From a virus: a stretch of DNA of 53,836 bases. Shown piece after piece: positions 301-35,479 of this stretch; positions within the stretch are counted from its first letter, which is position 1; the number at the start of each line of letters is the position of its first letter. The stretch lies in the IMG/VR virus record IMGVR_UViG_3300032296_001383, positions 1-53,836 of that record; one strand, 5' to 3'. A program made the position numbers and the translations under genes. The notes beneath the pieces are model-generated. The model did no database searches. It worked only from the letters and a program-made list of their open reading frames with translations, and was not told where the DNA came from.

Positions 301-564
301 ATGAAATTTGTAAACTTTATTGGAGGTCTTTTCAAAGATGAGAAGGGCAATGTCTCCATGAAACGTTTGTGCGGCTTATTTTGCACATTGACTTTGTGCG
401 CTACCTTGTACGCCAACTCTTTTACTGAAGCTCACTTTGCTCCTTCAACTCCGTTAGTAGACGCTGTAGCCTTACTTGCGTTTGGTTGCTTGGGTTTGAC
501 TTCGGTTGAGAAAATTATGAAAAAGCCTGAAGCCTCTAACTCTTCTGAAACCACTGAATCTTAA
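301..564 (+). CDS. small two-helix membrane protein, holin-like
   Basis: An 87-residue protein with two hydrophobic segments, about residues 22-38 and 51-68, and a polar Glu/Ser/Thr tail. The short N-terminal stretch KDEKGNVSMKR before the first helix resembles small phage holins. It is the first gene of the operon and lies just upstream of the cell-wall-enzyme-like gene at 570, a classical holin/endolysin order. A holin would form holes in the inner membrane at the end of infection. Role inferred from topology and position; a second two-helix protein at 3549 competes for the same role. Confidence 0.55.
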   Translation: MKFVNFIGGLFKDEKGNVSMKRLCGLFCTLTLCATLYANSFTEAHFAPSTPLVDAVALLAFGCLGLTSVEKIMKKPEASNSSETTES

Positions 565-569
565 TAATC

Positions 570-1208
570 ATGAACTACACTAGAGAACAAATCGAAGCCG
601 CAGTAAAAGCAAAAGGCTACGTTTACTTTGACGGAACAAAAGACTACGATATCAATATTATCGGAGTACGCAACTCTTCTACTGGTAACGATGTTACCAA
701 CTTGTTTGACGACACTTTGACTGTGTCTTTCAAAGTAGGAGGTGTTTGGCAGTTTCACCAATGGCAAGCAACAACTGATCCCGGAACAAAGGGCGTGAAG
801 GAATTTCACAACGCAGCAGGTGTTGCTCGCTTAGTACCTGGACAATATCGTGGTTCTCACCAATTGGGATTGCACCAAGGTAAATACCAAGCCCTTAAGC
901 AAAAAGCAAACGTAAAGGTTTACAGAGATGCTAACAAGGATATGACTTATGATGAGTCTAAAATCCAAGAAGGTATCTTCGGTATCAACATTCACAAAGC
1001 CGGTGCAGATTCCACATTCGTAGAAAACTGGAGCGAAGGATGTCAAGTGTTTAAACGTGAAAAGGACTTTAATCAGTTTCTTGAGTTTTGCAAATTGGCA
1101 AGCGGTATCCACGGCAATTCTTTTACTTACACTTTGATTGAGTCTGGCGACTTTATTGCTGCCGACAAAGCAGCAGGTGAAGCTAAGAAAGCTGCTAAGA
1201 AAAAATAA
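570..1208 (+). CDS. L,D-transpeptidase-like (YkuD-motif) protein, probable endolysin
   Basis: A 212-residue protein with the pattern His142 ... Ser155-x-Gly157-Cys158 (IHKAG...WSEGCQVF). This matches the catalytic His and Ser/Thr-x-Gly-Cys of L,D-transpeptidase/YkuD-fold enzymes that act on peptidoglycan stem peptides. There is no signal peptide, so release through a holin is expected; the preceding gene is holin-like. The C-terminus is a Lys/Ala-rich tail (about 196-212) that may bind membrane or nucleic acid. In phages such proteins are plausibly peptidoglycan peptidases rather than cross-linkers. Motif is clear; the exact bond cut is unknown. Confidence 0.65.
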   Translation: MNYTREQIEAAVKAKGYVYFDGTKDYDINIIGVRNSSTGNDVTNLFDDTLTVSFKVGGVWQFHQWQATTDPGTKGVKEFHNAAGVARLVPGQYRGSHQLGLHQGKYQALKQKANVKVYRDANKDMTYDESKIQEGIFGINIHKAGADSTFVENWSEGCQVFKREKDFNQFLEFCKLASGIHGNSFTYTLIESGDFIAADKAAGEAKKAAKKK

Positions 1209-1210
1209 TA

Positions 1211-1666
1211 ATGAAAAGGCTGGTCATCAGTCTTTTTTACATCTTGACTATCTCCTGCCAAGCACAAACTATTGCTAAAGCGGGAGATGGTTGGGATTTA
1301 AAGATTGACTCAGCCATACAACTTATTAAGGCTACAGACTCAGCAAAGTATGTAGTTTTTAGGGATGTATGTCAGAGAGTTGATTTTTGGAAAAGTTCTT
1401 TTTCTTCCACCGGTATAGTTGAAGGAGACTATACCATACTGATAGCAGATGCAGACATCAAGTTAAATTCAATTAATAACTTGGCGGCTGTACTAGTTCA
1501 CGAGAGTCTACATCTAATGTTTATTATGGAGGATGCAGTCTTTACGGAAAAGGAAGAAGAATATAGATGCTACTTGTACGAATTATCCTTCATCAAAAAA
1601 CTACCAACCCCAGAGCCATGGTTAACGGCAAATGCTTATGAAAAAATGCAATTATACAAACCATGA
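1211..1666 (+). CDS. exported zincin-type metallopeptidase, HESLH motif
   Basis: A 151-residue protein with an N-terminal signal peptide; the site around residues 16-19 (SCQA followed by Q) fits signal peptidase I cutting before Gln, although Cys16 leaves a lipoprotein possible. The core has a zinc-peptidase motif HESLH at residues 97-101, followed about 15 residues later by an acidic cluster (EEE, 115-117) that could give the third zinc ligand. It would act in the periplasm or outer envelope. Its stop overlaps the next ATG by four bases, so translation is coupled to the T9SS-type protein. It may process exported partners or help break the envelope; no family name is supported. Confidence 0.6.
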   Translation: MKRLVISLFYILTISCQAQTIAKAGDGWDLKIDSAIQLIKATDSAKYVVFRDVCQRVDFWKSSFSSTGIVEGDYTILIADADIKLNSINNLAAVLVHESLHLMFIMEDAVFTEKEEEYRCYLYELSFIKKLPTPEPWLTANAYEKMQLYKP

Positions 1667-3552
1667 AAAAAATACAATCGCTTCTAGTAGGGTTATTCCT
1701 ACTTACGGCTAGCCTCTTTGGACAGAGTGCTAGTTCTTCTCCTGGCACTGGTCACTGGGTCGTAATCGATTCAGGTTACCAAGTAGCAACAAACACCGTT
1801 GGTCAAACCGTTGCTCCCCTACACTTTTACAATACTTCTACATCAGAGAAAATTACAGGTATGCAATTCCGTGTATTCTATGATAAGACTGCATTTGTAG
1901 GAGTTGTTCCTTCTTTAAAGATTTCTACTTCAGACCAATACCTTCAGTACGTAGACAGTAACACCCAAGGATTCTTAACTGTAACTTTAGCTTACACAGG
2001 ATCTAGTGCTAGTTTCAACTACACTGACGGAGCTACATTCGATTTAACCTTTACTCACGCTGCCGAAGCTGTATGGAACAACTTAGATTCTATCAAGACT
2101 TTAAAAGTAGCCGGTGTTAAATCATTCTCTAACAGAGCTGCCACTAACTGGGGTAACGATACTACTTTGGTAGTTTACTCTTATGGTGGTCGCTTCAATC
2201 AGAAAGTATTACGTTTTGCTGCTAAGTTTAAAAACATTACCGGTTCAGATGCTAAGAACTTGTGGGTGTCTTTGGAAAAGAAATCCCCAACTGGTTCTTG
2301 GACTCATGTAGAAGCTAAAGCAACTAACTCTTTAGGACATGTTGTATTCCGTAAATTCTTGGATACTACTTACTGGGATGTACGTATGGTAGTTAAAGGC
2401 GATACAATGATTCCAGGTAACGTATTTTCTACTGCAGATGCACAGAAGATTAACCAAGCTATCCTAGCGCAATACACCCCATCAGGATTTGATTACTACA
2501 CAATGGATGTAAACGGAACTACTGGAGATATTTCTATCGCTGACGTATACTCTGTGTATGGACGTTTGGCAGGTAGATTCTCTAGCTGGCCTAACTCTAA
2601 GAAAGATGTAATGTTCTTCACAGTTGCTGAATACAATGCAATTAATGGAGCCGCTACTAACTTGACTTCTACTTACTCTACAGTAAACAACTTTAACTAC
2701 ACTATTGACGGTAAAGATTCTATCACTTACTACGTGGCTGTTAAGGGAGATGCAAACTCTACTGGATTTAAGATGGCTCGTTTGACTCCAATCAAAATTA
2801 TCAATCCAGCTAACGCTAAAAACTACATCATTGACAAAACTGTAAGTTATGATGATCCTACTTTAGAAACAGTAGAAATCAACATGCCTAAAGTAAAAGT
2901 AGAAGACGGCAACTTGGTAAACGTACCAGTTAAAGTTTTGACTAACGGCAAAGACTTGGGTGCTCTTCAATTAGACCTTAAATACGATACTGCTTACTTA
3001 GAGTTTAAGAACGTAGAAGTAACCGAGAAAATTATGAAGTGGACTGCTTACACCAATCCTTCTAACGGGATTGTTTCTTGGGGAGGTGCAGACCTAACCA
3101 ATGCTAATCTGTTGAAAGATGGTGAGGCTGTGTTTACGCTTCAATTCATTGCTAAGAAACCTCAAGACTCTTGGGCTACTGCAGCAATCTGGACATCAGA
3201 AAAGTACGTAGGAGATGCTAAGGCTAAAGACATGAATATTACTCCTACTATGGGCATTATTGAGGTTCGTAGAAAAGGTGTAGTAAACCTTAACCAAGTA
3301 AGTGACTTGATTGCTTTTCCAAATCCTTCTGAAGGTGCCATCCAAGTACAGTTTAAGATTGCAGAAGAATCAGACGTTAACCTATCTCTTTACAACGAAG
3401 TAGGACAGATGGTTCAGAATATCTTAGACAAGCACATGCCTGTAGGAAACTACAAGTATAGTGTAGACTTGGAAAGACTTCCTGACGGAGTTTATATCTT
3501 AACCTTAAAGACTGAAAAACAAGTCTTAGACTCTAAACTATTAATCATATGA
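1663..3552 (+). CDS. secreted surface protein with cohesin-like and dockerin-like modules and a T9SS C-terminal sorting domain
   Basis: A 629-residue protein. Residues 1-20 are a signal peptide with Gln at the mature N-terminus. Residues about 33-158 and 405-537 look like two cohesin-type beta-sandwiches. Residues 250-306 hold a dockerin-like module whose calcium-loop pattern is D-x-N-G-...-I-S-x-x-D (MDVNGTTGDISIAD). Residues 550-629 match a type A T9SS sorting domain: FPNPS, then LYNEVGQ, then LPDGVYIL, ending in KLLII. Such domains send Bacteroidota proteins through the outer membrane and are then removed. The operon's 7562 gene shares the dockerin-like part. This is highly unusual for a phage; domain calls are by eye but the sorting domain is very typical. 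Confidence 0.75.
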   Translation: MKKIQSLLVGLFLLTASLFGQSASSSPGTGHWVVIDSGYQVATNTVGQTVAPLHFYNTSTSEKITGMQFRVFYDKTAFVGVVPSLKISTSDQYLQYVDSNTQGFLTVTLAYTGSSASFNYTDGATFDLTFTHAAEAVWNNLDSIKTLKVAGVKSFSNRAATNWGNDTTLVVYSYGGRFNQKVLRFAAKFKNITGSDAKNLWVSLEKKSPTGSWTHVEAKATNSLGHVVFRKFLDTTYWDVRMVVKGDTMIPGNVFSTADAQKINQAILAQYTPSGFDYYTMDVNGTTGDISIADVYSVYGRLAGRFSSWPNSKKDVMFFTVAEYNAINGAATNLTSTYSTVNNFNYTIDGKDSITYYVAVKGDANSTGFKMARLTPIKIINPANAKNYIIDKTVSYDDPTLETVEINMPKVKVEDGNLVNVPVKVLTNGKDLGALQLDLKYDTAYLEFKNVEVTEKIMKWTAYTNPSNGIVSWGGADLTNANLLKDGEAVFTLQFIAKKPQDSWATAAIWTSEKYVGDAKAKDMNITPTMGIIEVRRKGVVNLNQVSDLIAFPNPSEGAIQVQFKIAEESDVNLSLYNEVGQMVQNILDKHMPVGNYKYSVDLERLPDGVYILTLKTEKQVLDSKLLII

Positions 3553-3914
3553 AACTAAAAAACAAACTTGGCTTTGGCCAAGCAGAACCCGTAGCAGTAC
3601 CAGATAACAATCGTTTCTACTACATGCTACAACAGATGCAAGCTAACCGCTGGAGAATTACTGCCATTGTATTAGGTCTGTTTACTTTAATCATCGTAGG
3701 TATTAACTCTGCCGTGTTCTTTGGAGCATCTATCGGAGAGGACTGGAAAGAACTATTACTTATCCTTTTGGGTGCCTTTGTAGGTAACTTGAACAAAGTA
3801 GTTGACTACTGGTTTAACTCTGAAGACCGTGATAAAATGCTAATAGCAAAGGTGGATGAGGAAGATGATACCCCAGAAATTTTAGCTGCTAAGTACGGTA
3901 AAAAAGAAGATTAA
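3549..3914 (+). CDS. holin-like membrane protein with two transmembrane segments
   Basis: A 121-residue protein with hydrophobic segments at about 36-60 and 67-86 and a charged C-terminal tail. The stretch LLLILLGAFVGN followed by KVVDYWFNSEDRDK resembles phage holin-type proteins in which the second helix is followed by a tyrosine/tryptophan-rich boundary. The start overlaps the stop of the T9SS-type gene by four bases (ATGA). It could be the true holin, or could anchor or energise the exported proteins. The presence of a second candidate at 301 leaves the assignment open. Confidence 0.5.
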   Translation: MKLKNKLGFGQAEPVAVPDNNRFYYMLQQMQANRWRITAIVLGLFTLIIVGINSAVFFGASIGEDWKELLLILLGAFVGNLNKVVDYWFNSEDRDKMLIAKVDEEDDTPEILAAKYGKKED

Positions 3915-3929
3915 TAAGTAAATTTACAC

Positions 3930-4517
3930 GTGGCTTATCTTTACCGACATATTAGACTTGATAAAAATATTCCTTTTTATATAGGGATAGGTGTTGATGA
4001 TGATGGAGGAAACTTCAGAAGATCCAAGGCAAAAGAACATCGTAATGAATACTGGCATAATATTGTAGCCAAAACAGGTTACAGAGTAGACATCATTATG
4101 AATGACTTGAGTTGGGAAGAAGCTTGTGCCAAAGAAAAGGAGTTTATTAAGTTATATGGGAGAAAAGATAAGTCTCAGGGTTTTTTAGCAAATCAAACTG
4201 ATGGAGGTGATGGAGGTACTGGTGTAATTGTAAAACCAGAAACACGAGAGAAGATACGGCAATTCCAAATTAGTTTAGATAAGAAAGGAAAACCAGGTAG
4301 GGTATGGACGCAAGAATCAAAAGATAAACTTGCAAATACAATACGAGGAGTTAAGCATAGTCCTGAAGCTATTGAGAAGATGCGTAAGCCTAGGAAAAAC
4401 ACAGAAAATTATAAATATCCCAAAGCAAAAATACCATGTCAAGTTTGTGGTTTTATGGCGCAACCTGCTGCAATTTCAAGATGGCACAATAAAAACTGTA
4501 AAAAAATTAATTCATAA
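3930..4517 (+). CDS. GIY-YIG homing endonuclease with NUMOD-type DNA-binding motifs
   Basis: A 195-residue protein starting at GTG 3930. The N-terminus shows the GIY-YIG signature (AYLYRH ... FYIGIG, residues 2-21). The middle has repeated NUMOD3-like helices (ETREKIR..., WTQESKDKL..., SPEAIEKMRK). The C-terminus has a Cys2-His-Cys zinc-finger-like end (CQVCG ... H...NC). Such free-standing endonucleases cut intron-less or variant relatives and spread by repair. It lies between operon genes with gaps rather than the 4-base overlaps of its neighbours, which suggests later insertion. Confidence 0.85.
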   Translation: MAYLYRHIRLDKNIPFYIGIGVDDDGGNFRRSKAKEHRNEYWHNIVAKTGYRVDIIMNDLSWEEACAKEKEFIKLYGRKDKSQGFLANQTDGGDGGTGVIVKPETREKIRQFQISLDKKGKPGRVWTQESKDKLANTIRGVKHSPEAIEKMRKPRKNTENYKYPKAKIPCQVCGFMAQPAAISRWHNKNCKKINS

Positions 4518-4521
4518 TATC

Positions 4522-4839
4522 ATGTCAGAAGAACAAGAAGAAAGCGGAATGTCTGGAGTTAAAAAGGCAATTATCGGAGCCATCACTACCGCAGTTACTG
4601 CCGGTGGTGCTTGGTTTGCTACTACCTTAGGTGGTGGCGAAGATAAAGCCGAAGCTCCTGCAGCTGTAGCTGCCCCTGCCCCGGTAATCAACATTACTAA
4701 CAGTAATGAAAATCAACAGAAGCAACAGAATAATGGCGGTGGCAACACTGTCATCATTAAAGAGAAAGCTGCACCAGCGGCTGCCCCTGCACCTGCTCCT
4801 GCCGCTAAACCTCAAGAGGAAGAGTCTGATCCATGGTAA
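4522..4839 (+). CDS. small membrane protein with Ala/Pro-rich tail
   Basis: The start is ATG 4522 (MSEEQEES...), not the upstream in-frame codon at 4330, which lies deep inside the endonuclease gene. The 105-residue product has one hydrophobic, glycine/alanine-rich segment at about 15-37, then low-complexity Ala/Pro, Asn/Gln and Gly runs, and an acidic end. A single helix plus extended periplasm-spanning tail would fit an accessory lysis or spanin-like role, but there is no recognisable family and no lipobox. Located between the two homing endonucleases, with a 7-nt overlap into the HNH gene. Confidence 0.6.
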   Translation: MSEEQEESGMSGVKKAIIGAITTAVTAGGAWFATTLGGGEDKAEAPAAVAAPAPVINITNSNENQQKQQNNGGGNTVIIKEKAAPAAAPAPAPAAKPQEEESDPW

Positions 4840-5432
4840 AAAAATGTAATATATGTTCTGTAGAAAAAAACTTAACTGACTTTTATAAATCAAAGTCAGG
4901 TAAAGACGGTTTGGAATCTTTTTGTAAAGTATGCAAAAAAGAAAAATCTAAAGTAAATTATGCAAAAAACTTAGAACACAGACTTCTACAGAACAAATTA
5001 TATTACTACGCTAATCATGAAAAACAGAAGGAGGTAAAAAATACTTGGAAGAAAAATAATCCAGAGTTAGTTCGAGCAATAAATAATGCTTGGGAAAAAA
5101 ATAAAAGAAAAGAAGATAAGTTCTGGGCTTGTAAGAAGGCTTTAAGAACACGATTCTTAGGAGCTTTATCTGGAAGAAAGAAATCCAATAGTACTTTAAA
5201 CTTAGTAGGAAAAGATTCTTGGGAAGCATTTAAGTTGTATGTAGAGTTACATTGGAGAGAAGGAATGAGTTGGGATAATTATGGCAGTGCAAAGGATTGT
5301 TGGGTAATTGACCATATTAAACCTCTTGCCTCTGCAAGAACTTTAGAAGAACTTGAAAAACTTCAACATTACACTAACCTACAACCTCTTTGGAGTATTG
5401 AAAATTTACAGAAAGGAACTAAAATTATATGA
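4833..5432 (+). CDS. HNH homing endonuclease
   Basis: A 199-residue protein. The N-terminus has CxxC...CxxC zinc-binding pairs (CNIC, CKVC). The middle is a Lys-rich helical region. The C-terminus has the HNH core: WVIDHIKPL, then HYTNLQPLW and ENLQKG, with the DH pair, Asn and final Asn in the expected order. It overlaps the small membrane gene at its start and the CsgG-like gene at its end (ATGA). A second mobile endonuclease close to the GIY-YIG gene makes this operon a hot spot for homing elements. Confidence 0.85.
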   Translation: MVKKCNICSVEKNLTDFYKSKSGKDGLESFCKVCKKEKSKVNYAKNLEHRLLQNKLYYYANHEKQKEVKNTWKKNNPELVRAINNAWEKNKRKEDKFWACKKALRTRFLGALSGRKKSNSTLNLVGKDSWEAFKLYVELHWREGMSWDNYGSAKDCWVIDHIKPLASARTLEELEKLQHYTNLQPLWSIENLQKGTKII

Positions 5433-6124
5433 AAATGTACAAAAAATTAAGCCTACTACTATTAGTAATTCTTGTCTATGGTTGTGGCTCTATGAAGACC
5501 ACAACCGAGGATGAGGTTATTGAAACAAAAGACATCTCTACTGTATCTGGTTATTCTGATTCTATTAAAAGAACAGTACAAGTAATCAGCATGGACATGA
5601 CCAAAGTATTGGCTATGTACCCTGCATTACAAGAGAAGAATGTCGGACTTGGTTTTGCAGAATCCGTACTAGATTACTTAGATGAAACAAATCGTTTTGT
5701 ATTTACTGAAGAGAAGGGTGAAATCAAGGAAAGGATGGTAACCCAATTCAAAGCTTCTAAAAAAGGAGTCTTTGAAGAACCCATCGACGGTAAAGGAAAG
5801 ATCAAAGCAGCACAGTACTTTGTATACGTGACTGTGGCAGACTTTGCTGTGGATGAAGACGAAACTGTAGAAGGAGCTAAAGCTAAAGTAGTAGTAACTA
5901 CTTTTATCCGTTTGCAGGTTCGTTTTGTAGATGCAAAAACTGGTCAAATCTTTATTGGCTCAGGAGAAGGGGAATCCACTAAAACCGGTGAATCTTTCTT
6001 GAAGTCTCTAGACGGAATGAAATTCTCGCAAAGCACAGTAGGTAAGGCTACCCGTAAATCACTTGAGACTGCATGTACCAAAGTGATTGAAAACCTTATC
6101 AAGAACGGTGTCTTTAAGAGTTAA
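5429..6124 (+). CDS. CsgG-like outer-membrane lipoprotein
   Basis: A 231-residue protein with a lipoprotein signal ending in VYGC (Cys19). The mature part follows the CsgG/HfaB pattern: an N-terminal VQVISMDM strand, GLGFAESVLDYLDETNRFVF, then FIRLQVRFVDAKTGQIF, IGSGEGES and a final helix region VGKATRKSLE...KVIENLI. CsgG forms the outer-membrane pore that secretes curli amyloid subunits. The regions where CsgG carries its membrane-spanning hairpins look short here, so it may form a periplasmic ring rather than a full pore. It is followed by an outer-membrane-barrel-like protein in the same operon, which fits an envelope assembly. Confidence 0.65.
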   Translation: MKMYKKLSLLLLVILVYGCGSMKTTTEDEVIETKDISTVSGYSDSIKRTVQVISMDMTKVLAMYPALQEKNVGLGFAESVLDYLDETNRFVFTEEKGEIKERMVTQFKASKKGVFEEPIDGKGKIKAAQYFVYVTVADFAVDEDETVEGAKAKVVVTTFIRLQVRFVDAKTGQIFIGSGEGESTKTGESFLKSLDGMKFSQSTVGKATRKSLETACTKVIENLIKNGVFKS

Positions 6125-7565
6125 AATATTGCTCTTGTTTTGTACGATAGGACTGGGTTTAAAAGCTCAGTCCTTTACGTATAGCTACTTAGATCCGTGT
6201 ACTAAGGAATTAAAGTTCATTAGTGCGGATATGAATACCCCAATAATGATTTCTTACTATGGACAGGTGAAAGCCTTTTCATACACAGAATTGCAAAACG
6301 GTACGTTTGACGCTTGGTTAAATTCTACCTACACAAATTTTCGTACAACCAAACCTTGCGAAGGTGTACTAACAACCACGACTACTACGACTTCTACCAA
6401 CACGGTAATGGGTTTAGTAAATAGTGTAATGACCTTGAACTCTTTAACGAGTTTAGACTTATCTTCGACATCTCTGGGATCAGGGACTTCTGTCGGAGGT
6501 ACAACTACTTCCGGGACATCGGGAGTTAATGTAAAAACTAAAAATGAAAAACCGAACGACAAACCTAGTGGTGATGGAAGTAATAACACTACTAGTGGCT
6601 CTGGGAATACTTCTAGTTCAGGTGACCAATCATCTGGACAAGGATCCGTGGGGTCGTCGGAAGGACAAGTAGGAAACAATGGAAACGGAAACAATGGTGG
6701 AAATACTGAAGGCAGCGGGTCTTCTAACTCTGGGAGTGGTTCTGGGAGTGGTTCTAGTTCTTCTTCTGGTAGTAGTGGCAATGGTTCTGGTGGAGGGAGT
6801 GGTAACGGTGGTGGAGTGGATAAGAAGCCTGAAGAAAAAACTCCTGAAAAAGTAGAGGAGCAAAAAACCGAAACTCAAAAAGCCGGAGGAAATAGTACAG
6901 CAAAAGCTGCTGCTAAGGGTAAAGTAGAAACTCAAAAACCGGCTATCCTAGTTACCGGTGACATAGTAGGAATCCAAACTGCTAGGAGTGATAAACAAGA
7001 TGCAAGAGGTACAATGTCATTCACTCGTGTTCGAGGAGACGGCACAGCTTCTATTGGTTTGTCTGCCGATTACATGGTTAACGCCAGGATAGGAAATATC
7101 GGAGGTATCAAATCTTGGATTGGCACCAATCAAAAAGGCTACAAACACATTAACGTATTATCTGCCGGCTTAGGATTAATGCCCAAGTCATATACCTCAT
7201 CTTTACTTTTTGTAAGGGTGAACTCAATGAAGAACTTTACAGCACTTTATGGAGCTGCCGGCTCTTATGGTAAGTTGTTTGAGGAAGAACTTATCTCCAC
7301 CATGCTAATAGGTGGTTTCATGTACAAGGGTCAGATTTCTAAGCATATCGACGCTACGATTATTGCTGCGGCAGTCTATGCCCCGTACACAAAATATTAC
7401 ACAGAGAGTTTGTTTAAAAGCAGACCTATCATAGTTCCCTTCTTAAACATTAACTACTCAATCACAAAGACATTTAAGTTTGGTTTGACTGGGGGAGGAA
7501 CTTACATAGCGAACCAAGACGTAGTCAACTATCAGATCTTAATGGGAGGTAAGCTTAAGATATGA
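6108..7565 (+). CDS. exported protein with Ser/Gly-rich linker and C-terminal outer-membrane beta-barrel-like domain
   Basis: No ATG is available; I choose GTG 6108 because it gives a compact signal peptide (Arg/Lys, then LLLFCTIGLGLKA, Gln at +1), although an upstream TTG at 6087 is possible. The product is about 485 residues. It has a small N-terminal domain with two cysteines, a run of threonines, a long Gly/Ser/Asn linker, a Lys/Glu region, and from about residue 270 alternating amphipathic strands (many Tyr, Gly, Phe) ending in GGKLKI, typical of an outer-membrane barrel. It overlaps the CsgG-like gene by 17 nt. The linker could span the periplasm or peptidoglycan. Confidence 0.6.
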   Translation: MSLRVKILLLFCTIGLGLKAQSFTYSYLDPCTKELKFISADMNTPIMISYYGQVKAFSYTELQNGTFDAWLNSTYTNFRTTKPCEGVLTTTTTTTSTNTVMGLVNSVMTLNSLTSLDLSSTSLGSGTSVGGTTTSGTSGVNVKTKNEKPNDKPSGDGSNNTTSGSGNTSSSGDQSSGQGSVGSSEGQVGNNGNGNNGGNTEGSGSSNSGSGSGSGSSSSSGSSGNGSGGGSGNGGGVDKKPEEKTPEKVEEQKTETQKAGGNSTAKAAAKGKVETQKPAILVTGDIVGIQTARSDKQDARGTMSFTRVRGDGTASIGLSADYMVNARIGNIGGIKSWIGTNQKGYKHINVLSAGLGLMPKSYTSSLLFVRVNSMKNFTALYGAAGSYGKLFEEELISTMLIGGFMYKGQISKHIDATIIAAAVYAPYTKYYTESLFKSRPIIVPFLNINYSITKTFKFGLTGGGTYIANQDVVNYQILMGGKLKI

Positions 7566-8758
7566 GATGGATTATTCTTCTATTCTTGTTTGCAAGCCCT
7601 CTGGTGGCCCAATTTACTTATTCTGGATACTTGTATAACGCAAACGGTTCTGGTGCCTCTAACGTGGCTGTGAAACTTTTTAAAAGTACAGCAGGGGCAA
7701 CTACAAAGACAGGGACGCTAACTAAGATAACATCAGGGATTCCTTCTGACAGAGGAAGAGGAACTTCTGTCTTACACTCAACCCTTAACACAGATGAGAA
7801 ATCAGTTGCCATAACTATTCCCTTTACAGTAAGTTATGCCGGTACAAACTACACAAGTGGACATGTTAACGCTAACTCATGGTTTACTTTTGGAACAACG
7901 TCTAGTTCTGGTTTTAACGGAAACGCAACAAGTCCTAACCAACCCACTATCCATATCGGATCGGTAGATAACGGTTCTACGGATAACAACGTTTCTTATG
8001 TTTCAACTGAAGCTTACACAGACGGTACCTACGGGGACGTGTTTAGAGTTAGGTATGAGGGAAACTGTAAATACAACCAAACAGGAATCAACTATGTTTG
8101 GGATTTGTATTTTATCAAAAATCAAACTGCAAAGCAAATAGCAGTTTGGAGAACATTCACAGCTGACGGCTCAAACCAAGAGGTAATGGGTATATCTACA
8201 GGTAGTGCTTGGATGGCAAGTACGTTAGTTACGGCAGGTACTTTTACTAGCACTAGTTGGGAGATAACCTCTACTTCAACTACAACAACCTCATCTAGTT
8301 CTTTAGATGCTACAGCGTATACTAACTCGTCAGGGTATTATTCTTTCTCAAGAACTACAGTTGCGGGGAATCAATTCACAATCCAAGTAGATGCTCCTAC
8401 TAGAATCCAAGCCTACCTAACAACAGATATCCAAGCTGTATCAAATATCATCTTAAACAAAGACGCTAGAAATGGGTTATCCTTCCACATGTTTGACGTA
8501 AATGACGACAAGGTAATTTCTGTTGCCGATAAGTATTATGTGGCAGCAAGAAAAGCTGGGAGATTTTCTAAATGGAGAACGGCACCAGATGTTCGTATCT
8601 TTACAACCACAGAGTACAATGCTATTAAAGCTGCCACAACAAACGTAAGAACAACCTACCCAGGAGTCACTAATCATACAACCTCAACCTTAACTAGTGG
8701 CGGAACTTTAAATTTATACATCATAGCTCCCGGCTATGCAGGACAAGTAACTTACTAA
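7562..8758 (+). CDS. secreted fibre-like protein with a dockerin-like C-terminus
   Basis: A 398-residue protein; signal peptide 1-16 with Gln17 mature. Residues 17-60 and about 245-285 look like carboxypeptidase-regulatory-type beta modules. Residues 84-200 contain a surface-fibre pattern (IPFTVSYAGT...NSWFTFG...IHIGSVDN...FRVRYEG) that I associate with phage tail-fibre proteins. Residues 288-336 are dockerin-like (FDVNDDKVISVAD, KAGRFSKW) and the following stretch (TTTEYNAIKAATTN) is homologous to residues 319-335 of the 1663 protein. Unlike that protein it has no T9SS sorting domain. The start overlaps the preceding stop (ATGA). Confidence 0.65.
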   Translation: MRWIILLFLFASPLVAQFTYSGYLYNANGSGASNVAVKLFKSTAGATTKTGTLTKITSGIPSDRGRGTSVLHSTLNTDEKSVAITIPFTVSYAGTNYTSGHVNANSWFTFGTTSSSGFNGNATSPNQPTIHIGSVDNGSTDNNVSYVSTEAYTDGTYGDVFRVRYEGNCKYNQTGINYVWDLYFIKNQTAKQIAVWRTFTADGSNQEVMGISTGSAWMASTLVTAGTFTSTSWEITSTSTTTTSSSSLDATAYTNSSGYYSFSRTTVAGNQFTIQVDAPTRIQAYLTTDIQAVSNIILNKDARNGLSFHMFDVNDDKVISVADKYYVAARKAGRFSKWRTAPDVRIFTTTEYNAIKAATTNVRTTYPGVTNHTTSTLTSGGTLNLYIIAPGYAGQVTY

Positions 8759-8759
8759 A

Positions 8760-9203
8760 ATGAAAACTATACTATTCACCCTCGTATCCTTAATGGCTCT
8801 TAACCTTCAAGGACAATCCTACAAAGTAGATTCAGTAACATCTACAGCTAGTGTAACTGATATTGCTGGCAGACCAATTACATTCGGTGCACAAACAACC
8901 CTTGAGCAGTTGATTGCAGACAAATTTAGTTTGTCCGACACAGGTCAAATTGTAAAAGTGCAGATTTACTCTATTGCAATGCCAGAAGAATTGGTCAACA
9001 TTATTGGCATCCAATTACTGAAGAGAGATTACATTGTTTCTGTTAGACTGTCAGTAGGAGATAAAGTTTACGAAGCCCAAGCCAAGAAAAGAGTGTTTGT
9101 CAATGCAATGTTCTTGACAGTCGAGCAAATCCCCCACAACAAAAAAGCCTATTCAAAAGCGTTGGAGAAGTCTTTAGCTGCAGCTGTTGCTCAGATGAAA
9201 TAA
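8760..9203 (+). CDS. small exported protein of unknown function
   Basis: A 147-residue protein with a signal peptide (LMALNLQG before Gln19). The mature part is an alternating alpha/beta sequence without cysteine clusters or membrane segments, ending in a helix KALEKSLAAAVAQMK. It is the last gene of the operon and lies one base after the previous stop. I do not recognise a family; a periplasmic helper or chaperone for the CsgG-like/barrel pair is a guess from position only. Confidence 0.55.
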   Translation: MKTILFTLVSLMALNLQGQSYKVDSVTSTASVTDIAGRPITFGAQTTLEQLIADKFSLSDTGQIVKVQIYSIAMPEELVNIIGIQLLKRDYIVSVRLSVGDKVYEAQAKKRVFVNAMFLTVEQIPHNKKAYSKALEKSLAAAVAQMK

Positions 9204-11440: not shown

Positions 11441-11747
11441 AAAGCAAACATACGTATCAGCCGAACTAGAATGGGCAGAGTCCAAGCTAAAGGAATGGCG
11501 TGACTACGTAGATAAGAATCCAATTGCGGAACTCAAAGACCGCATAGAATGGAAGCCAACTTCTAAGGGAGGAGCAATACCTATGGTCATTGCTTCCATA
11601 GAATCACAGATTAAGTCTCTCCGTGATACTATGAAAGAATATCTTTCCCTACTTGAGACTGTAGATAAACTCCGTGAGAAAGAAGAGCAAAAGACAGTTG
11701 CTCGTGGATCACAGGAAGTAAATGGACTAATGAAAAAATTCATGTAA
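11430..11747 (+). CDS. coiled-coil protein, candidate small terminase subunit
   Basis: A 105-residue helical protein; residues 10-35 and 55-90 are strongly charged coiled-coil-like (WAESKLKEWRDYV, SQIKSLRDTMKEYL). Its last base is shared with the first base of TerL. Small terminase subunits are usually short helical oligomers encoded directly before TerL, which is the main reason for this suggestion; there is no clear DNA-binding helix-turn-helix. Confidence 0.45.
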   Translation: MAVKKQTYVSAELEWAESKLKEWRDYVDKNPIAELKDRIEWKPTSKGGAIPMVIASIESQIKSLRDTMKEYLSLLETVDKLREKEEQKTVARGSQEVNGLMKKFM

Positions 11748-13756
11748 TGTATAATCTAGATAGTGCTGAATTCCTAATCAACATGAAGAGCATCCCGGAG
11801 GACGAAACCTCTGAGGAGTTTGAGGCGTTTTGGGAAAACGAGTATAAGAAGATTACGGAGGGAGTCACTATCAATGGATTCTATTTTTCCCCGTTTATTT
11901 ACTGGCATCTAAATTACGGCACGTTATACAAAGATGAGTTAGTTGGTGCCCGCAAAGTCCGTAGACTAGGCAAACCCCAACTGTGGGATAGTTATCTTCA
12001 GATAGATGAGTCAATAGGGAGAGCGGAAAGTCATGAGGATGGTATGAAAGGGCTGGTCATAGTAGGATCCCGTCGTATCTCCAAGACTATTATCACCTCT
12101 TCCTATATGGCTCACAAAGCCGTAACACAGTTTGGTAGTGACAATCTTATTTCAGCTCTAAACCAACCGGATTTAAGCAACACTACCCAGGCTGTAGATT
12201 TGGTTCTGCAGAACTTACCGAAGTACTTTAGATTCCTGCGTATCGAGGATGACTGGAAGCGTCAGGTTACATTAGGTTTCAAAGACAAAACCTCGAATAA
12301 GCGTAACGCCTTCTCACGCATACACGTGCGGAACTTTGATGAAGGAAACAATACGGAGGCAGCGGCAGGTCTTACCCTTTCTTCTTTTATGTTAGAAGAA
12401 GCCGGTAAGGGAAACATGCTTAACTGTCTGTCGGCTACTATTCCTTGTTTTGACTCAGAGTATGGATGGCGCTGTTCTCCGATTGTAATTGGAACATCAG
12501 GAGATATGACCAAGGCTTCTGACTTGGAAGAACTTTTCAATAACCCAGAAGCATACAACTTCCTTTCTGTAGAGGCAAATGAATCAGGAAAATCCTATGG
12601 TTTGTTTATCCCCGGCACTAAATCTCTGAAAGTACCTAGAGAGAATAAACCTTTAGGCTTATACCTAGGCAAGGAGGAATCTTCCGAACTAGATAATATT
12701 ACCATCTGGGTAAGTGACGAGGCTAAAGGTAAAGAGATGATTCTTAAGAACCGTGAGAACGTTAAGAAAGCATCCGGCCTTGAAGCATACTTAAAGGAGA
12801 TAATGTACTATCCTCTAACTCACGAGGAGTGCTTTATGGAAATGTCGCAAAACATCTTCCCGGTAGATCTTCTCCAAGAACAATTACAGAAGTTAACCAA
12901 CCAAGACATCAAGGGAGATAACGTAGAACTTTACCTGAAGCAAGACGGTAAGGTTGCTCACAAGTTTACCGACAAAAAACCCGTAGTCAACTTTCCAATA
13001 AAACCAGCAGATGACATAGAAGGATGTGTAGTGATTTGGGAATACCCAATCTCTGATGCTCCTTATGGTCTTTATACAGCAGGAACGGATCCTTACAAAC
13101 AGTCACAGGCACACTACTCTACTTCTTTGGGATCGACTTATATCTACAAGCGAGTTCATAACCTTTCAGGTGAAGGTTGGCAGAACATTGTAGTAGCTTG
13201 TTACACAGGTCGTCCTAAGAAAATCGAACAGTGGTATGAGACTACCAAACTCTTACTTATGTACTATAATGCTAAAACCTTGTGTGAAAACATGGATTAT
13301 GGTTTTATTCAGCATTGTGTAGAGAAAAACATAAGTCCTAAAGTCCTAGAAAGAACGCCTTCTTTCCTAACAGATATCCACCCTAACTCAATGGTTAATC
13401 GTGACTATGGAATTCACATGACCAAAGAAATTAAATCTTACTTACTAGGATTAATTATTGAATACCTAACTGAAGAGATAGATGTAGAGCGAGATAAAGA
13501 TGGAAATATCAGTAAAACTAGGTTAGGTGTATCTAGAATTTTAGACCCATTACTGTTAAAAGAATTGCTCAAATTTACACCAAAATTGAATGTTGACCGT
13601 ATTATTGCATTTGGATTGACACTAGCAATGTCCCGAACTCTTTATAATAAAATTACTATCCATAGTAATACTGAAGATGGTCGGATGAAAGAATACTTTC
13701 AATCCAGAAAACCTTTCTCACCATTTAAACAATCCTCAAGCTCACTATTTAGATAA
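11747..13756 (+). CDS. terL: terminase large subunit
   Basis: A 669-residue packaging motor and nuclease that pumps DNA into the capsid through the portal and cuts it at headful or site. The ATPase Walker A is GSRRISKT at 107-114 (a variant without the usual glycine before lysine). Walker B with the catalytic Glu pair is FMLEE at 214-218. The RNase H-like nuclease starts with AGTDPY (Asp448) and continues with ENMDYGF (Asp517). The length is typical for crAss-like phages, and the portal gene follows directly. Confidence 0.95.
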   Translation: MYNLDSAEFLINMKSIPEDETSEEFEAFWENEYKKITEGVTINGFYFSPFIYWHLNYGTLYKDELVGARKVRRLGKPQLWDSYLQIDESIGRAESHEDGMKGLVIVGSRRISKTIITSSYMAHKAVTQFGSDNLISALNQPDLSNTTQAVDLVLQNLPKYFRFLRIEDDWKRQVTLGFKDKTSNKRNAFSRIHVRNFDEGNNTEAAAGLTLSSFMLEEAGKGNMLNCLSATIPCFDSEYGWRCSPIVIGTSGDMTKASDLEELFNNPEAYNFLSVEANESGKSYGLFIPGTKSLKVPRENKPLGLYLGKEESSELDNITIWVSDEAKGKEMILKNRENVKKASGLEAYLKEIMYYPLTHEECFMEMSQNIFPVDLLQEQLQKLTNQDIKGDNVELYLKQDGKVAHKFTDKKPVVNFPIKPADDIEGCVVIWEYPISDAPYGLYTAGTDPYKQSQAHYSTSLGSTYIYKRVHNLSGEGWQNIVVACYTGRPKKIEQWYETTKLLLMYYNAKTLCENMDYGFIQHCVEKNISPKVLERTPSFLTDIHPNSMVNRDYGIHMTKEIKSYLLGLIIEYLTEEIDVERDKDGNISKTRLGVSRILDPLLLKELLKFTPKLNVDRIIAFGLTLAMSRTLYNKITIHSNTEDGRMKEYFQSRKPFSPFKQSSSSLFR

Positions 13757-16260: not shown

Positions 16261-16290
16261 TTGCGTTAATTTTTTATTATATTATTTTTG
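16261..16290 (+). promoter_or_regulatory. promoter of the head operon
   Basis: TTG at 16261-16263, 19-nt spacer, TATTTTTG at 16283-16290. The leader that follows carries CCTAACCAAACCAACC. The TTG inside the -7 box is not a start codon. Confidence 0.78.
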
Positions 16291-16311
16291 AACCTAACCA
16301 AACCAACCAAC

Positions 16312-17490
16312 ATGAATACTAATGAAAATCCATTAGAGAATTTAGAGTTCTTTGAATCATTCTCCAGTGACGATCCAATTGATGTAAACCCTCAATACGA
16401 TCCCAACAAGAACATTGCTCCAGATATTCTGGGTCCAGACGGTACTATTAAAGATCCAATTCTTGACCCTGAATTTGAAGACGAAGAAGAGGAAGACGAA
16501 GATGCGGACGATAACAATCCTCCTGCCCCTGCGAAAAAACCTACTCCTGCGCCTGCTCCTTTAGACGATAATGACGATGAAGATGAGCCAATCGATGACA
16601 ATGACGAAGAAGCCGATGACATCAATTATTTTGAAGTCTTTGGAAAGGGATTAGTTAAAGCCGGATTACTTGATGCGGAAGACGTTGAAAACCAAGAGTG
16701 GACTGAACAGAGTTTCTTAGATAAGATGAGTGAAACCATCGAGAAGAGAGCCTGGGATACCCTTGAAGAGTTGGCAACTGAAACATACGGAGATGCCGGA
16801 GTAAAACTAGTTGAAGATATCTTCATCAACAAAGTTCCTATTCAGCAATACTTGCAGATGTTCAACAACGAACAGATTGTAGATAATGTTGATTTATCTA
16901 ATGAAGTGAACCAAGAAAGAGTGGTTCGTCTTTACTTAGCTAAGACAGGAATGGACGAAGATGAGATTGAAGACCAACTTACTTTTGCTAAAGATAACGA
17001 TAGACTTGGTTCTTATGCTAAGAAATACCATGGCAAACTAGTAGAACGTATGCAACAAGAGAGAGCAACACTTGCTCAGGACAATGCACAACGAGTACAG
17101 GAAATCCAGCAGAAAGAACAGCAACGTCAACAACAGTACGCTTCTGTTCTAGAAGAGTCTATCAAGAAGGGTGAGATTGAAGGTTACCCAATCAATGAAA
17201 CCACTGCAAGTGACTTATTTGATTTTGTACTTTCAAAACCACACGTTCTTCCAAATGGTCAACGTATTACCGACTTTGAATTTAAGTTGGCTACTATGAG
17301 ACAGGAAGATCCTTCTAAGTTTTTGGCAATAGCAAGACTTGTTCAAAATGATCTAGACTTGACTCCAATGAAAAGAAAGGGTGTGACTGAAGAGACAAAC
17401 TCAATCTTTAATGACTTGAAGGTTAAAACTAAAAAATCTACCAAGGGAACAAAATCCAACCAGGATTTATTCACAAGGTACTTTAAATAA
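16312..17490 (+). CDS. acidic protein, probable scaffolding protein
   Basis: The start is ATG 16312 (MNTNENPLENLEF); an in-frame TTG at 16288 lies inside the promoter and is rejected. The 392-residue product has a very acidic, proline-containing N-terminal half (long Asp/Glu runs about 55-110), then a helical centre, a Gln-rich coiled coil (QQKEQQRQQQYASVLEE) and a basic C-terminus (KVKTKKSTKGTK). An acidic body with a basic end, placed between portal and capsid, is what scaffolding proteins look like. No sequence family confirmed. Confidence 0.65.
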   Translation: MNTNENPLENLEFFESFSSDDPIDVNPQYDPNKNIAPDILGPDGTIKDPILDPEFEDEEEEDEDADDNNPPAPAKKPTPAPAPLDDNDDEDEPIDDNDEEADDINYFEVFGKGLVKAGLLDAEDVENQEWTEQSFLDKMSETIEKRAWDTLEELATETYGDAGVKLVEDIFINKVPIQQYLQMFNNEQIVDNVDLSNEVNQERVVRLYLAKTGMDEDEIEDQLTFAKDNDRLGSYAKKYHGKLVERMQQERATLAQDNAQRVQEIQQKEQQRQQQYASVLEESIKKGEIEGYPINETTASDLFDFVLSKPHVLPNGQRITDFEFKLATMRQEDPSKFLAIARLVQNDLDLTPMKRKGVTEETNSIFNDLKVKTKKSTKGTKSNQDLFTRYFK

Positions 17491-17516: not shown

Positions 17517-19061
17517 ATGCCAAATTTAAGTATGCCTAGGGTTAATGGTAAAGTTATAGCTAACTCCCATATGACCAGTTCCTACTATTCTAAGAATGGT
17601 TTGAACAAACTTACAGAAAAAAACTTCGTGGAAACGATGTTGAAGACTAAGCCTGACCAGTATGACAAGATGATGATTCGTTTGTTTACAGACACTCGTT
17701 TGTATTCTAACGATTTGATCGACCTTGTTATGAAGTCTGGTAAGCCTTTCATGGTTAACGACCCTAACGGTGTCTTTACCTACAAGATTAAAAAACGTGC
17801 TGAATTGCCAAAAATCATCGCTACTTATGCAGTAGGTTCTACTTCTGCTATTAGTGCTAGACCTGGTATTGACGGACAAGAGTTTGACGTTGTATTTGAC
17901 AAGCAAGCTTTCACTGTAAATGACATTATCACTGCTCACCGTTATGAGCAAGAAACTCAAATCCAAATCGTAGCTGAGCCTGAGCGTTTCCAAAACGGTT
18001 TCCGTTATCGTTGTCGTGCTGCCGGTTCAACTTCTGCTGATTTTGTTAACTTGCGTTTCCTCGTTGTAGGGGTTGAGTATTTCAAAGTTGGTAACGTGTT
18101 GGGTGAATACACTACTAGTTTCTCTGGTCTTGGTTTGTTCGACGGTCACTTGGAAGTTATGGCTGATGTTCTTAACCAATATGGTGTAGAGCACACTATC
18201 ACTGACTGGGCTGATGCTACTAAGTTGGGTGCACAAACTGATGCTACTGGTAATCCTTTGGATATCACTTACTACTCTGTAACTGATCCTAACGCTGAAG
18301 GTGAAAAAACCAAAATTGTTGGTTGGGAGCCTACAGTATCTCGTCTTCTTCGTATGGAAATGTTGCGCATGCGTGCAAACATGTTGATGTGGGGTCGTCA
18401 AGGTAACACTAAAGATGAAAAAGGTCGTCCAACTCGTTTGAAGCCAGGTTTGTGGCAGCAATTGCACTTGGGTAACGTTCTTTACTATGATCGTGGTCAA
18501 TTCTCTTTGAACCTTTTGCGTTCTGCTATCGGAGATTTGTTCTACAACCGTGTGAAGATTGCTGACCGTTATGTAAAAGTATACACTAACCGTGCTGGTA
18601 TGGAATTGGCTTCTTTGTCAATCCGTAAAGACTTCAACAACCAAAACATGACTTTGAATGCTGATAAGTTCATGGATGGTAAAGATCGTTTGAAGCAAGG
18701 TTATGCATTGCAGTTTGACCACTTCATGACTACTGAGACAGGTCCAGTAGAATTCATCGAATTGGAACAGTTGAACGAGCATGCTACTTTCTTGGAATTG
18801 GGTCCTAACAAAAAGACTCCTCCAATCTTCATCATTATGGACGTAAGCAACGAAGGTGGTGCTAACATCCGTGAGGTGAAATTGTCTACTCGTCCTAACA
18901 TGTACTATCAGTACATTGCAGGTTCAGTAGGATTCGGTCAGTCACAAACTGTGATTGCTAACAAAGATCCATACAGTACCTACATCATGAAGGACTTCTG
19001 TGGTATCTTCTTGGAAGATCCTACTCGTACCGTAATCATTAAAGAATACCCACGCTTGTAA
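17517..19061 (+). CDS. major capsid protein
   Basis: A 514-residue protein in the position, and of the length, of crAss-like major capsid proteins (HK97 fold). It uses a strongly biased, regular codon set with many GTT/GGT/CGT codons compared with flanking genes, as expected for the most abundant protein. It follows the scaffold-like gene. Sequence features include a long beta-rich central region and ends with a strand IFLEDPTRTVIIKEYP. A GC-rich hairpin directly follows, which may protect the message. Confidence 0.9.
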   Translation: MPNLSMPRVNGKVIANSHMTSSYYSKNGLNKLTEKNFVETMLKTKPDQYDKMMIRLFTDTRLYSNDLIDLVMKSGKPFMVNDPNGVFTYKIKKRAELPKIIATYAVGSTSAISARPGIDGQEFDVVFDKQAFTVNDIITAHRYEQETQIQIVAEPERFQNGFRYRCRAAGSTSADFVNLRFLVVGVEYFKVGNVLGEYTTSFSGLGLFDGHLEVMADVLNQYGVEHTITDWADATKLGAQTDATGNPLDITYYSVTDPNAEGEKTKIVGWEPTVSRLLRMEMLRMRANMLMWGRQGNTKDEKGRPTRLKPGLWQQLHLGNVLYYDRGQFSLNLLRSAIGDLFYNRVKIADRYVKVYTNRAGMELASLSIRKDFNNQNMTLNADKFMDGKDRLKQGYALQFDHFMTTETGPVEFIELEQLNEHATFLELGPNKKTPPIFIIMDVSNEGGANIREVKLSTRPNMYYQYIAGSVGFGQSQTVIANKDPYSTYIMKDFCGIFLEDPTRTVIIKEYPRL

Positions 19062-34567: not shown

Positions 34568-35479
34568 ATGAATCGTTTGCGAAAGTCTTACTCAACTTGC
34601 ATGGAGTGCGGTGGTAAGAAAATGAAATCAGGAGGTAAGTGGATTCAGAAAGCAATTCAGAATCCTGGTTCCTTCACCAAACAAGCACAATCTGCCGGTA
34701 TGTCTGTTGCAGGTTTTAAAAACAAAGTTCTTGCTAACAAAGAAGACTATTCTTCTACTACAGTAAAGAGAGCTAACCTAGCTAACACACTATCTAAAAT
34801 GCGTAAGGGTCAAGGTGGTATGGACTTTAAAGATCCTATGGGACCTGACCGCATGATGGGAGAGATGACACCTCAAATGCCTAAAGAAAGTCCAGTAGAT
34901 CAGAATCTTATGATGGATCAGTTGGAACCTGCAGAGCGTATCCAGCCTCTAGATCCTAAGATGGCTCAAGCTAAGAGCATGGTTAGTGATCTTGAGAAAC
35001 AAGCAGAGCGTGATAATGTTCGTGAGTACCAAAGAATGTTGAACCGTAAATACAATGCCGGTTTGTCAGAAGATGGTGCTTGGGGTAAAAACACTCAAGC
35101 CGCTTACGAGAAATACATCTTGGCTAAGAAAGCAACTCCTGCAGCTAAGCCTGGATTTACTGATGGTACAGAACAGAATCCTGTTAGAATGGGAGAGGTA
35201 AAGATTGTTGCTAAGAAGCCTATGGCTCCTGAAAGAGTTTTACCTGTTCGTCCTATCCCTCAGAAACAACCTAGACTAAGCGATTTCATTACTCCTACTT
35301 ATGTTCCTCCTATGGGTGGTCGTAATTTCCAGGACAATACTCGCTTGGCTACTCCCGTTAGACCTATTACTCCTACTAAGAAACCAGTAGTTAATCCTAA
35401 GCAAACTTACTTGAGTCAAACTCCTGTAGGTAGGGTAAGTCTTTCCTATGCAAATTCTCCTTTGTATAAAAAGAAATAA
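34568..35479 (+). CDS. virion protein with peptidoglycan-binding-like motif
   Basis: A 303-residue basic protein. The N-terminus has CMECGG and MKSGGK, then a coiled-coil-like Lys-rich stretch and Met/Pro-rich linker. Residues about 155-190 (REYQRMLNRKYNAGLSEDGAWGKNTQAAYEKY) match the PG_binding_1 rhythm (repeat helix, DG.WG..T..A). The end is proline-rich. Likely carried in the virion, where the PG-binding-like part would help anchor to the wall during entry. Confidence 0.55.
   Translation: MNRLRKSYSTCMECGGKKMKSGGKWIQKAIQNPGSFTKQAQSAGMSVAGFKNKVLANKEDYSSTTVKRANLANTLSKMRKGQGGMDFKDPMGPDRMMGEMTPQMPKESPVDQNLMMDQLEPAERIQPLDPKMAQAKSMVSDLEKQAERDNVREYQRMLNRKYNAGLSEDGAWGKNTQAAYEKYILAKKATPAAKPGFTDGTEQNPVRMGEVKIVAKKPMAPERVLPVRPIPQKQPRLSDFITPTYVPPMGGRNFQDNTRLATPVRPITPTKKPVVNPKQTYLSQTPVGRVSLSYANSPLYKKK

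Follow-up and report, generated by a model that had tools for sequence, protein, structure and literature searches.

A fixed set of exported-protein genes with an exchangeable adhesin-like centre in tailed phages, and its possible role in surface display on infected Bacteroidota

The DNA analyzed here (the window) comprises positions 1 to 53,836 of the IMG/VR virus record IMGVR_UViG_3300032296_001383, 53,836 nucleotides in length, and carries a cluster of genes for exported proteins on its plus strand at 1211-9203. A first-pass annotation had read this cluster as an operon by which a phage makes its host export a whole surface assembly, naming a metallopeptidase, a type IX secretion system (T9SS)-type protein with cohesin/dockerin-like parts, a CsgG-like lipoprotein, an outer-membrane-barrel-like protein, a fibre-like dockerin-type protein, and a small periplasmic protein. 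Our data indicated that six core families recur together, often with two accessory ones, at related phage loci, and that their products could form an apparatus displaying a glycan-binding protein on the infected cell. The members of this module in the window are as follows.

1211-1666, plus strand: MP, accessory; small exported, metallopeptidase-like protein (HESLHL, an HExxH motif, with a downstream EE; signal-peptide rule)
1663-3552, plus strand: COH, core; cohesin protein with a Sec signal and a T9SS type A sorting domain (Pfam and TIGRFAM profiles)
3549-3914, plus strand: TMb, accessory; membrane protein (two hydrophobic stretches read in the sequence)
4522-4839, plus strand: TMa, core; one hydrophobic stretch and a Pro/Ala/Asn/Gln-rich tail ending in DPW (present in 84/84 full-flank loci)
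5429-6124, plus strand: CSG, core; CsgG-like outer-membrane lipoprotein (lipobox; AlphaFold2 fold)
6108-7565, plus strand: OMP, core; N-terminal domain, Ser/Gly/Asn-rich disordered linker, and 12-strand barrel (AlphaFold2; signal peptide)
7562-8758, plus strand: FIB, core; adhesin-like protein of modular build, its two ends fixed and its centre (7688-8299) exchangeable (Pfam scan; swaps)
8760-9203, plus strand: PER, core; small exported protein (signal peptide; present in 84/84 full-flank loci)

Related loci were collected from IMG/VR with COH (94 relatives, 80 kept) and with the CSG protein of the phage immuto (113 relatives, 80 kept). Among the 162 loci examined, 84 extended 7 kb or more beyond CSG in both directions (full-flank loci), and 37 representatives were distinguished at a CSG identity below 95%. 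COH, TMa, CSG, OMP, PER, and FIB occurred together in 84/84 full-flank loci and 37/37 representatives, presence that is partly by construction because the profiles were built from COH- and immuto-CSG-anchored loci. The six families were also found together in the loci with enough flank that were anchored on PER (15/15), OMP (14/14), and FIB (26/26); most of these loci lie on contigs already in the collection, and in the PER and OMP sets COH, which shares a dockerin-like part, may be counted by the FIB profile. This synteny agrees with the first-pass view of a joint unit. MP was present in 64 and TMb in 58 of the 84 full-flank loci. The remark at first pass that phages rarely encode even one such protein was not borne out in IMG/VR, which has many whole sets, carried by viruses known mostly from environmental DNA; yet tblastn against 50,697 annotated phage records found COH or CSG in four records only, all of them immuto. 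Gut crAss-like phages among these records seem to lack the module, which would fit the need for a T9SS-bearing host.

Immuto (MW353176) is a cultured phage of Flavobacterium, a genus with a T9SS; it is among the 84 loci and carries relatives of all six core families, namely a FIB of the C-type lectin kind, a COH region spread over two open reading frames (ORFs), TMa, CSG, OMP, and a PER relative. It differs from the window in having no MP or TMb within 7 kb and in the replication genes adjoining its module, whose genes are annotated as hypothetical except for 'cohesin' and 'lectin C-type'. The domains of the module are of the bacterial surface-protein type, as would be expected if a Bacteroidota adhesin operon had been taken up as cargo and kept for the benefit of the host. 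We consider this origin highly improbable, as a scan of 84,980 genomes (one per species) returned one CSG relative, in a contig of a metagenome-assembled genome that contains the phage module itself, and 72,556 plasmid records gave no match; the genome scan, run with no more than two peptide patterns, is a weak negative. The module is present in a species genome that bears the label Sphingomonadaceae (RFPL01000028.1, locus L084), most likely as a phage contig binned into a metagenome-assembled genome.

Export signals were called with a home-made rule, cruder than and distinct from SignalP, on 39 plus-strand window ORFs (TMa not included) at a threshold of 1.6. MP, COH, CSG, OMP, FIB, and PER each showed a cleavage or lipobox site and a hydrophobic core, with core values of 2.59-3.46. 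Three of the other 33 ORFs passed the threshold (those starting at 301, 3930, and 20817; cores 1.84-1.93), and none passed at a core of 2.5, a cut-off picked after the values were known. Distinct sequences of relatives, scored with the rule in a later form (core 2.2), passed in 73/78 cases for MP, 85/95 for COH, 103/103 for CSG, 71/102 for OMP, 86/119 for FIB, and 82/89 for PER, compared with 24/319 flanking genes from 23 loci, 1/103 for TMa, and 0/65 for TMb. Some of the misses may stem from wrongly chosen starts.

The cohesin domain of COH (PF00963; best match at 2875-3264) scored 48.9 bits against a cut-off of 24.1, and its T9SS tail at 3316-3546 exceeded the cut-offs of both PF18962 (43.9 versus 27 bits) and TIGR04183 (37.4 versus 23). 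Among the 40 COH proteins scanned (the window copy and 39 of 69 non-redundant sequences from 151 found), the PF18962 tail was present in all 40 and the cohesin domain in 35, and exactly one T9SS tail per record was found in 25/25 carrier records. A search of the phage records with the T9SS tail alone gave no match, a weak negative because it also missed the immuto tail that Pfam finds. A dockerin-like stretch was read by eye at 2398-2574 in COH and at about 8426-8560 in FIB, with one DxN-type loop each; Dockerin_1 (PF00404) matched neither window protein, and matched 7/40 COH and 2/46 FIB proteins at E ≤0.01. In MP, the HESLHL motif lies at 1499-1516, and HESxHL with the downstream EE was kept in 78/78 distinct relatives, with no Pfam family matched. 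TMb would have the topology of a class II holin, as judged from its two hydrophobic stretches, and its matches were weak, to PHROGs of unknown function.

CSG was the most conserved of the five aligned core families, with a mean column identity of 68% versus 31-51% for COH, OMP, PER, and FIB. Its AlphaFold2 model (mean predicted local distance difference test [pLDDT], 65.5) found CsgG chains (PDB 4uv2) as the best PDB match (Foldseek E, 1.1e-5; TM-score, 0.40; Z, 10.8; root mean square deviation, 3.8 over 156 residues), with PelC, FlgT, LptE, and PqiC ranking lower by Z, and the first BFVD match of the model also bears the CsgG name. Sequence profiles of CSG gave no match against PDB sequences. 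The CsgG family PF03783 scored 14.3 bits for the window copy against a cut-off of 20.8, with 3/28 members matching at E ≤1 (best, 1.9e-4). CSG is thus predicted to have a CsgG-like fold, and it is not filed as a member of the CsgG family because its PF03783 score is below the gathering cut-off. By rule, a lipobox was present in the window copy and in 76/103 distinct relatives, the other 27 having a type I-like site instead. TMa, whose start was set to the ATG at 4522 from homologs, lies immediately 5′ of CSG in 33/37 representatives, and its tail is probably periplasmic. All 103 distinct TMa proteins end in Trp after a low-complexity tail (DPW, 60; ESW, 31; EPW, 8; DSW, 4).

OMP most likely starts at the GTG at 6108 rather than at the TTG at 6087. 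Its AlphaFold2 model (mean pLDDT, 58.2) begins with a small N-terminal domain, followed by a helix, then a disordered stretch, and lastly a barrel of 12 strands at residues 279-483 (6942-7556), in which 15/22 ten-residue blocks reach a pLDDT of at least 70; the model matched porin-like folds with Z up to 18.1 (CymA). PER is probably periplasmic and can be aligned across the phage groups (23-83% identity to the window copy); no Pfam family matched the window copy, and its PDB matches were no better than E 0.12. Measured against the first-pass readings, the outer-membrane barrel was supported by its model and signal peptide, and the small, probably periplasmic protein by its signal peptide. Other names stood in part: the metallopeptidase by its conserved motif and not by a Pfam family, the T9SS cohesin protein by scores above the cut-offs with its dockerin part weak, the CsgG-like lipoprotein by fold and lipobox with a sequence match below the Pfam cut-off, and the fibre-like dockerin-type protein as an adhesin-like FIB whose dockerin assignment is weak.

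FIB was scanned with Pfam in 46 of 54 rows (the window copy and 53 non-redundant sequences from 171 found); among the middle ORFs in the immuto group, seven were left out, as was L127:14651-15574, and L099:2519-3610 was kept. The centres matched Lectin_C in 20 cases, Laminin_G_3 in 6, GEVED in 5, and PA14 in 3, and the window copy, its centre included, had no Pfam match. In three pairs of close relatives, the FIB centre was replaced while the rest of the module and the region from TerL (the terminase large subunit gene) to the capsid gene remained mostly 90-100% identical; most other changes in these pairs affected virion-region genes, and one pair also had changes just upstream of the lysis-type gene. 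We compared the type of FIB centre with the identity of a putative tail protein (window 35488-38064 and counterparts, named for its location amid virion genes and for how much it varies, with no PHROG match) in 38 close pairs from 20 records. Pairs sharing a FIB type (n = 17) had a mean identity of 0.55 in this protein and those with swapped FIB (n = 21) one of 0.44, and same-FIB pairs with identities as low as 0.26-0.34 exist; no test statistic is claimed because the 38 pairs are not independent.

Receptor shielding would have the FIB type go along with the putative tail protein; this corollary was therefore unsupported, with no clear coupling over the 38 pairs. A domain shared between FIB and tail fibres was likewise rejected: the Lectin_C profile hit one place in 16/25 records and the window FIB centre one place in 6/25, and every such place lay within 5 kb of the COH T9SS tail. 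Centres of the same type were 79-100% identical in close pairs, and the window centre was 84-88% identical to those of four other carriers, three of them contractile-tailed. Since FIB centres are kept across carriers and were found beside the module alone in the records searched, the data point to FIB binding a few common ligands and not a receptor particular to one strain. Such presumed ligands would suit a role in adhesion or aggregation, in which a lectin coat tethers the infected cell to particles, algae, or other cells and progeny are freed among new hosts. Many FIB centres match carbohydrate- or surface-binding folds, and their identity stays high in close pairs in which the putative tail protein falls to 26-34%, in keeping with this role. 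We regard adhesion as possible, on the doubtful side.

The phages that carry the module differ from one another. The window appears to be part of a phage with a crAss-like TerL, a group label that rests on the relatives of TerL (11747-13756), which were found in 133 phage records; 15 of the 25 relatives listed are titled 'uncultured phage cr...', which we take to mean crAss-like. First among the TerL matches listed was Leptolyngbya phage Lbo-JY46 (40% identity; PP438436.1, L083), whose named host is a cyanobacterium and in whose fetched 40 kb no module gene was matched. The capsid gene of the window (17517-19061) matched the major head protein phrog_11589 (E, 1.7e-28). A homolog of window 16288-17490 has one in-frame TAA within the match in G040, G041, G043, G044, and G045. 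The window TerL was found in 4/24 carrier records tested, a contractile sheath domain in 16/25, and a T4-type capsid protein in 12/25, on contigs of up to 308 kb, which suggests that the module is carried by tailed phages of at least two virion types. In the CSG tree, a supported group (100/100) unites the window with other crAss-like carriers and with contractile-tailed ones, and nested in it is a supported clade (99/97) of three contractile-tailed carriers. In the T4-type carrier L056, COH and CSG are 73% and 82% identical to the window copies, and the window TerL is unmatched in that record. Transfer of the module between unrelated phages would be the simplest reading, and the CSG tree by itself does not force it, a single origin of the crAss-like label being compatible with the starred branches.

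These carriers bear on whether FIB and its partners could be decoration or tail proteins of the virion with signal-like N-termini. Phage adhesins with lectin domains exist on virions, and in the window TerL and the capsid gene lie 2.5 kb and 8.3 kb downstream of the module on the same strand. In opposition to this, relatives whose virions differ retain the Sec and lipoprotein signals as well as the T9SS tail, and the distance from that tail, in linear coordinates, is at least 18 kb to the sheath match (16 records) and at least 36 kb to the capsid match (12 records). A virion role is very unlikely, because the virion types differ and the T9SS tail is far from sheath and capsid genes in the contractile-tailed records.

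Beside or inside the module in the window are four further ORFs, two lysis-type neighbours and two insertions of the homing endonuclease-like type.

301-564, plus strand: two-helix holin-like gene, context (name given by inference; no PHROG better than E 0.04)
570-1208, plus strand: endolysin-type gene, context (phrog_3000, unknown function, E 5.2e-37; phrog_33083, endolysin, E 2.7e-11)
3930-4517, plus strand: GIY-YIG-type homing endonuclease-like ORF (NUMOD3 E 0.004, below the cut-off; family named by reading)
4833-5432, plus strand: HNH-type homing endonuclease-like ORF (assigned by reading; no Pfam match)

From 301 to 9203, twelve plus-strand ORFs run in the order holin-like, endolysin-type, MP, COH, TMb, GIY-YIG-like, TMa, HNH-like, CSG, OMP, FIB, and PER; neighbours overlap by 4-17 bases or sit 1-15 bases apart, and a 713-base gap comes next. 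The six ORFs first described, with their tight coupling and export signals, are thus where they had been placed; they are not adjacent, TMb, TMa, and the two homing-type ORFs lying between them. TMa, TMb, both homing-type ORFs, and the linkage to lysis genes had been overlooked at first pass. Relatives of the GIY-YIG-like ORF occupy other positions around the same module in the loci of other phages, and homologs of the HNH-like ORF are sporadic; both would be insertions rather than part of the function of the module.

The window cluster begins 2 bases 3′ of the endolysin-type gene. An endolysin of one of two unrelated families (the second being a GH19/PG-binding endolysin; L145:6280-7101, phrog_181, E 1.1e-70) was found in the fetched flank of 29/37 representatives, within 2 kb in 27, and a member of the holin-like family (three queries) in 26/37, within 2 kb in 20. 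This linkage, the place of TMa immediately before CSG, and the weak match of a TMa relative (L116:3644-3967) to the 'hol-like' PHROG 2658 (E, 0.0027) would suit a lysis-phase module, in which TMa and CSG act as a spanin-like pair, TMb acts as the holin, and the outer layer is loosened or cross-linked by the surface proteins so that the cell bursts. Lysis needs neither a T9SS-sorted cohesin protein nor a swappable lectin, however, and 8/37 representatives, mostly immuto-like, showed no such endolysin in the fetched flank, with the immuto set placed by replication genes; the match of CSG to a spanin PHROG (E, 0.017) is limited to residues 3-41. We therefore judge a lysis-phase role rather unlikely. 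An additional thought is that the module senses conditions outside the cell, with a surface lectin detecting glycans, debris, or phages and a signal passing via OMP, PER, and CSG to TMa and the holin-like proteins. Such a sensor, which we hold to be quite improbable, would hasten or delay lysis and would be a multi-part, outward-looking counterpart of the lysis inhibition of tailed phages.

Several other genes were noted at these loci. In 8/37 representatives (L102, L051, L082, L098, L130, L137, L154, and L160), the module contains or adjoins a gene for a DNA/RNA non-specific nuclease whose start is signal-like (L102:5191-5769; PF01223; E, 1.5e-24), and an SLT transglycosylase-like protein with an N-terminal hydrophobic stretch (L053:6948-7490; PF01464; E, 7.8e-12) lies 2 kb upstream of the module. 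An ORF in the virion region of the window (34568-35479), remote from the lysis-type gene at 570, weakly matched an endolysin (phrog_2649; E, 2.4e-4). A ribonucleotide reductase gene was upstream in 12/37 representatives, as in immuto. Both lysis and replication neighbourhoods thus occur among the representatives. Scans of the DNA yielded nothing usable for sigma-70 promoters (18 found versus 27.2 expected) or terminators (8 versus 7.9), and a Bacteroidota promoter pattern (TTTG-N18-21-TANNTTTG) occurred 0 times in L082 and 3 times in the window, none of them within 1211-9203.

Taken together, we see an even balance of chances that the cluster encodes an envelope-spanning apparatus displaying a glycan-binding protein on the infected Bacteroidota cell. 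The phage would install this apparatus during infection. COH would leave the cell through the host T9SS and be held on the surface as a cohesin scaffold, the best-grounded step of the model. CSG, PER, OMP with its barrel and periplasmic arm, and TMa in the inner membrane would make up the envelope-crossing part. FIB, its exchangeable and in most types glycan-binding-like centre sitting between fixed ends, would be shown outside, perhaps tied to COH through its dockerin-like end; by analogy with CsgG-type systems and with cohesin/dockerin-like parts, it might pass through or over CSG/OMP and bind COH. The infected cell, and then its lysis debris, would carry a lectin coat chosen by the phage. 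That coat may shield the cell, blocking superinfection and the wasted re-adsorption of progeny, a role we put forward tentatively, ahead of tethering and of a lysis-linked use, and with lowered weight because the coupling test showed no clear link between FIB and the putative tail protein. Regarding the exported surface assembly claimed at first pass, its elements hold (export signals, a T9SS cohesin, a CsgG-like protein, a barrel, an adhesin-like protein, and a fixed set) and a joint exported assembly is a well-grounded reading, because the exported parts co-occur in every full-flank locus; coating, exclusion, tethering, and envelope disassembly are candidate uses of it.

Several observations weigh against display by such an apparatus. 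The dockerin matches in FIB and COH are weak, and FIB has no T9SS tail of its own. CSG may lack pore hairpins, the single-chain model at the pLDDT given above showing one long hairpin (130-148/151-168). The neighbourhoods are mixed, with lysis genes in most representatives and replication and nucleotide genes in the immuto group, and the promoter and terminator scans do not place expression of the module in time. The missing coupling between FIB type and the putative tail protein belongs here as well. Finally, the analysis establishes the genes with their signals and domains, the predicted folds, the co-occurrence, the domain swaps, and the linkage to lysis genes, from which we infer a single complex, the surface exposure of FIB, and a benefit to the phage.

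To our knowledge, most surface proteins that phages are known to place on infected cells are single small proteins of the exclusion type. In bacteria, CsgG/HfaB-type proteins export adhesins or curli, the amyloid transporter FapF is a barrel with an N-terminal periplasmic part, and cellulosomes use cohesin-dockerin scaffolds. CSG resembles CsgG/HfaB-type lipoproteins (PDB 4uv2, 6l7a) in its predicted fold and its rule-called lipobox, with a sequence below the Pfam cut-off, and no other curli gene was recognised in the module. FapF (PDB 5o68) was among the Foldseek matches of OMP at 4-7% identity, with several porins and autotransporters scoring higher and no amyloid gene recognised. The likeness to cellulosomes lies in cohesin domains and dockerin-like ends within one cluster; the dockerin matches are weak and no such enzymes were seen.

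Among phage systems, the outer-membrane lipoproteins T5 Llp and Cor stop superinfection, and exclusion proteins also prevent unproductive adsorption to fragments of lysed cells, according to PMC9586334; such a system is a single small periplasmic protein jamming one receptor, whereas the module brings a surface lectin, a barrel, and T9SS cargo. In Cryophage (Bellas et al. 2020, PMC7468147), phage proteins with T9SS type A tails vary between variants, one having PA14, and superinfection exclusion or inter-strain competition is suggested there by the authors. In Cryophage, an endoglucanase, a GH39, and a PA14 gene carry the T9SS tail, whereas here the tail is on one conserved cohesin protein and the variable FIB is without it; the fixed set of CsgG-like, barrel, periplasmic, and inner-membrane members has no counterpart in the passages on those genes. 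T9SS-tailed genes near BACON genes are also described for gut phages. No description of this gene set was found in the open literature, a search that left most subscription journals and bioRxiv outside. As far as these sources reach, T9SS cargo genes in phages have been reported before and each part is near known families, and the combination of parts is new. If the proposed apparatus exists, infected Bacteroidota would present a virus-chosen surface, with effects on superinfection, particle attachment, and phage dispersal, a reading that the cultured carrier immuto makes directly testable. Set beside the single exclusion proteins and the variable T9SS-tailed genes above, tailed phages of at least two virion types would then keep a whole set that plugs into the host T9SS and offers an exchangeable lectin slot.

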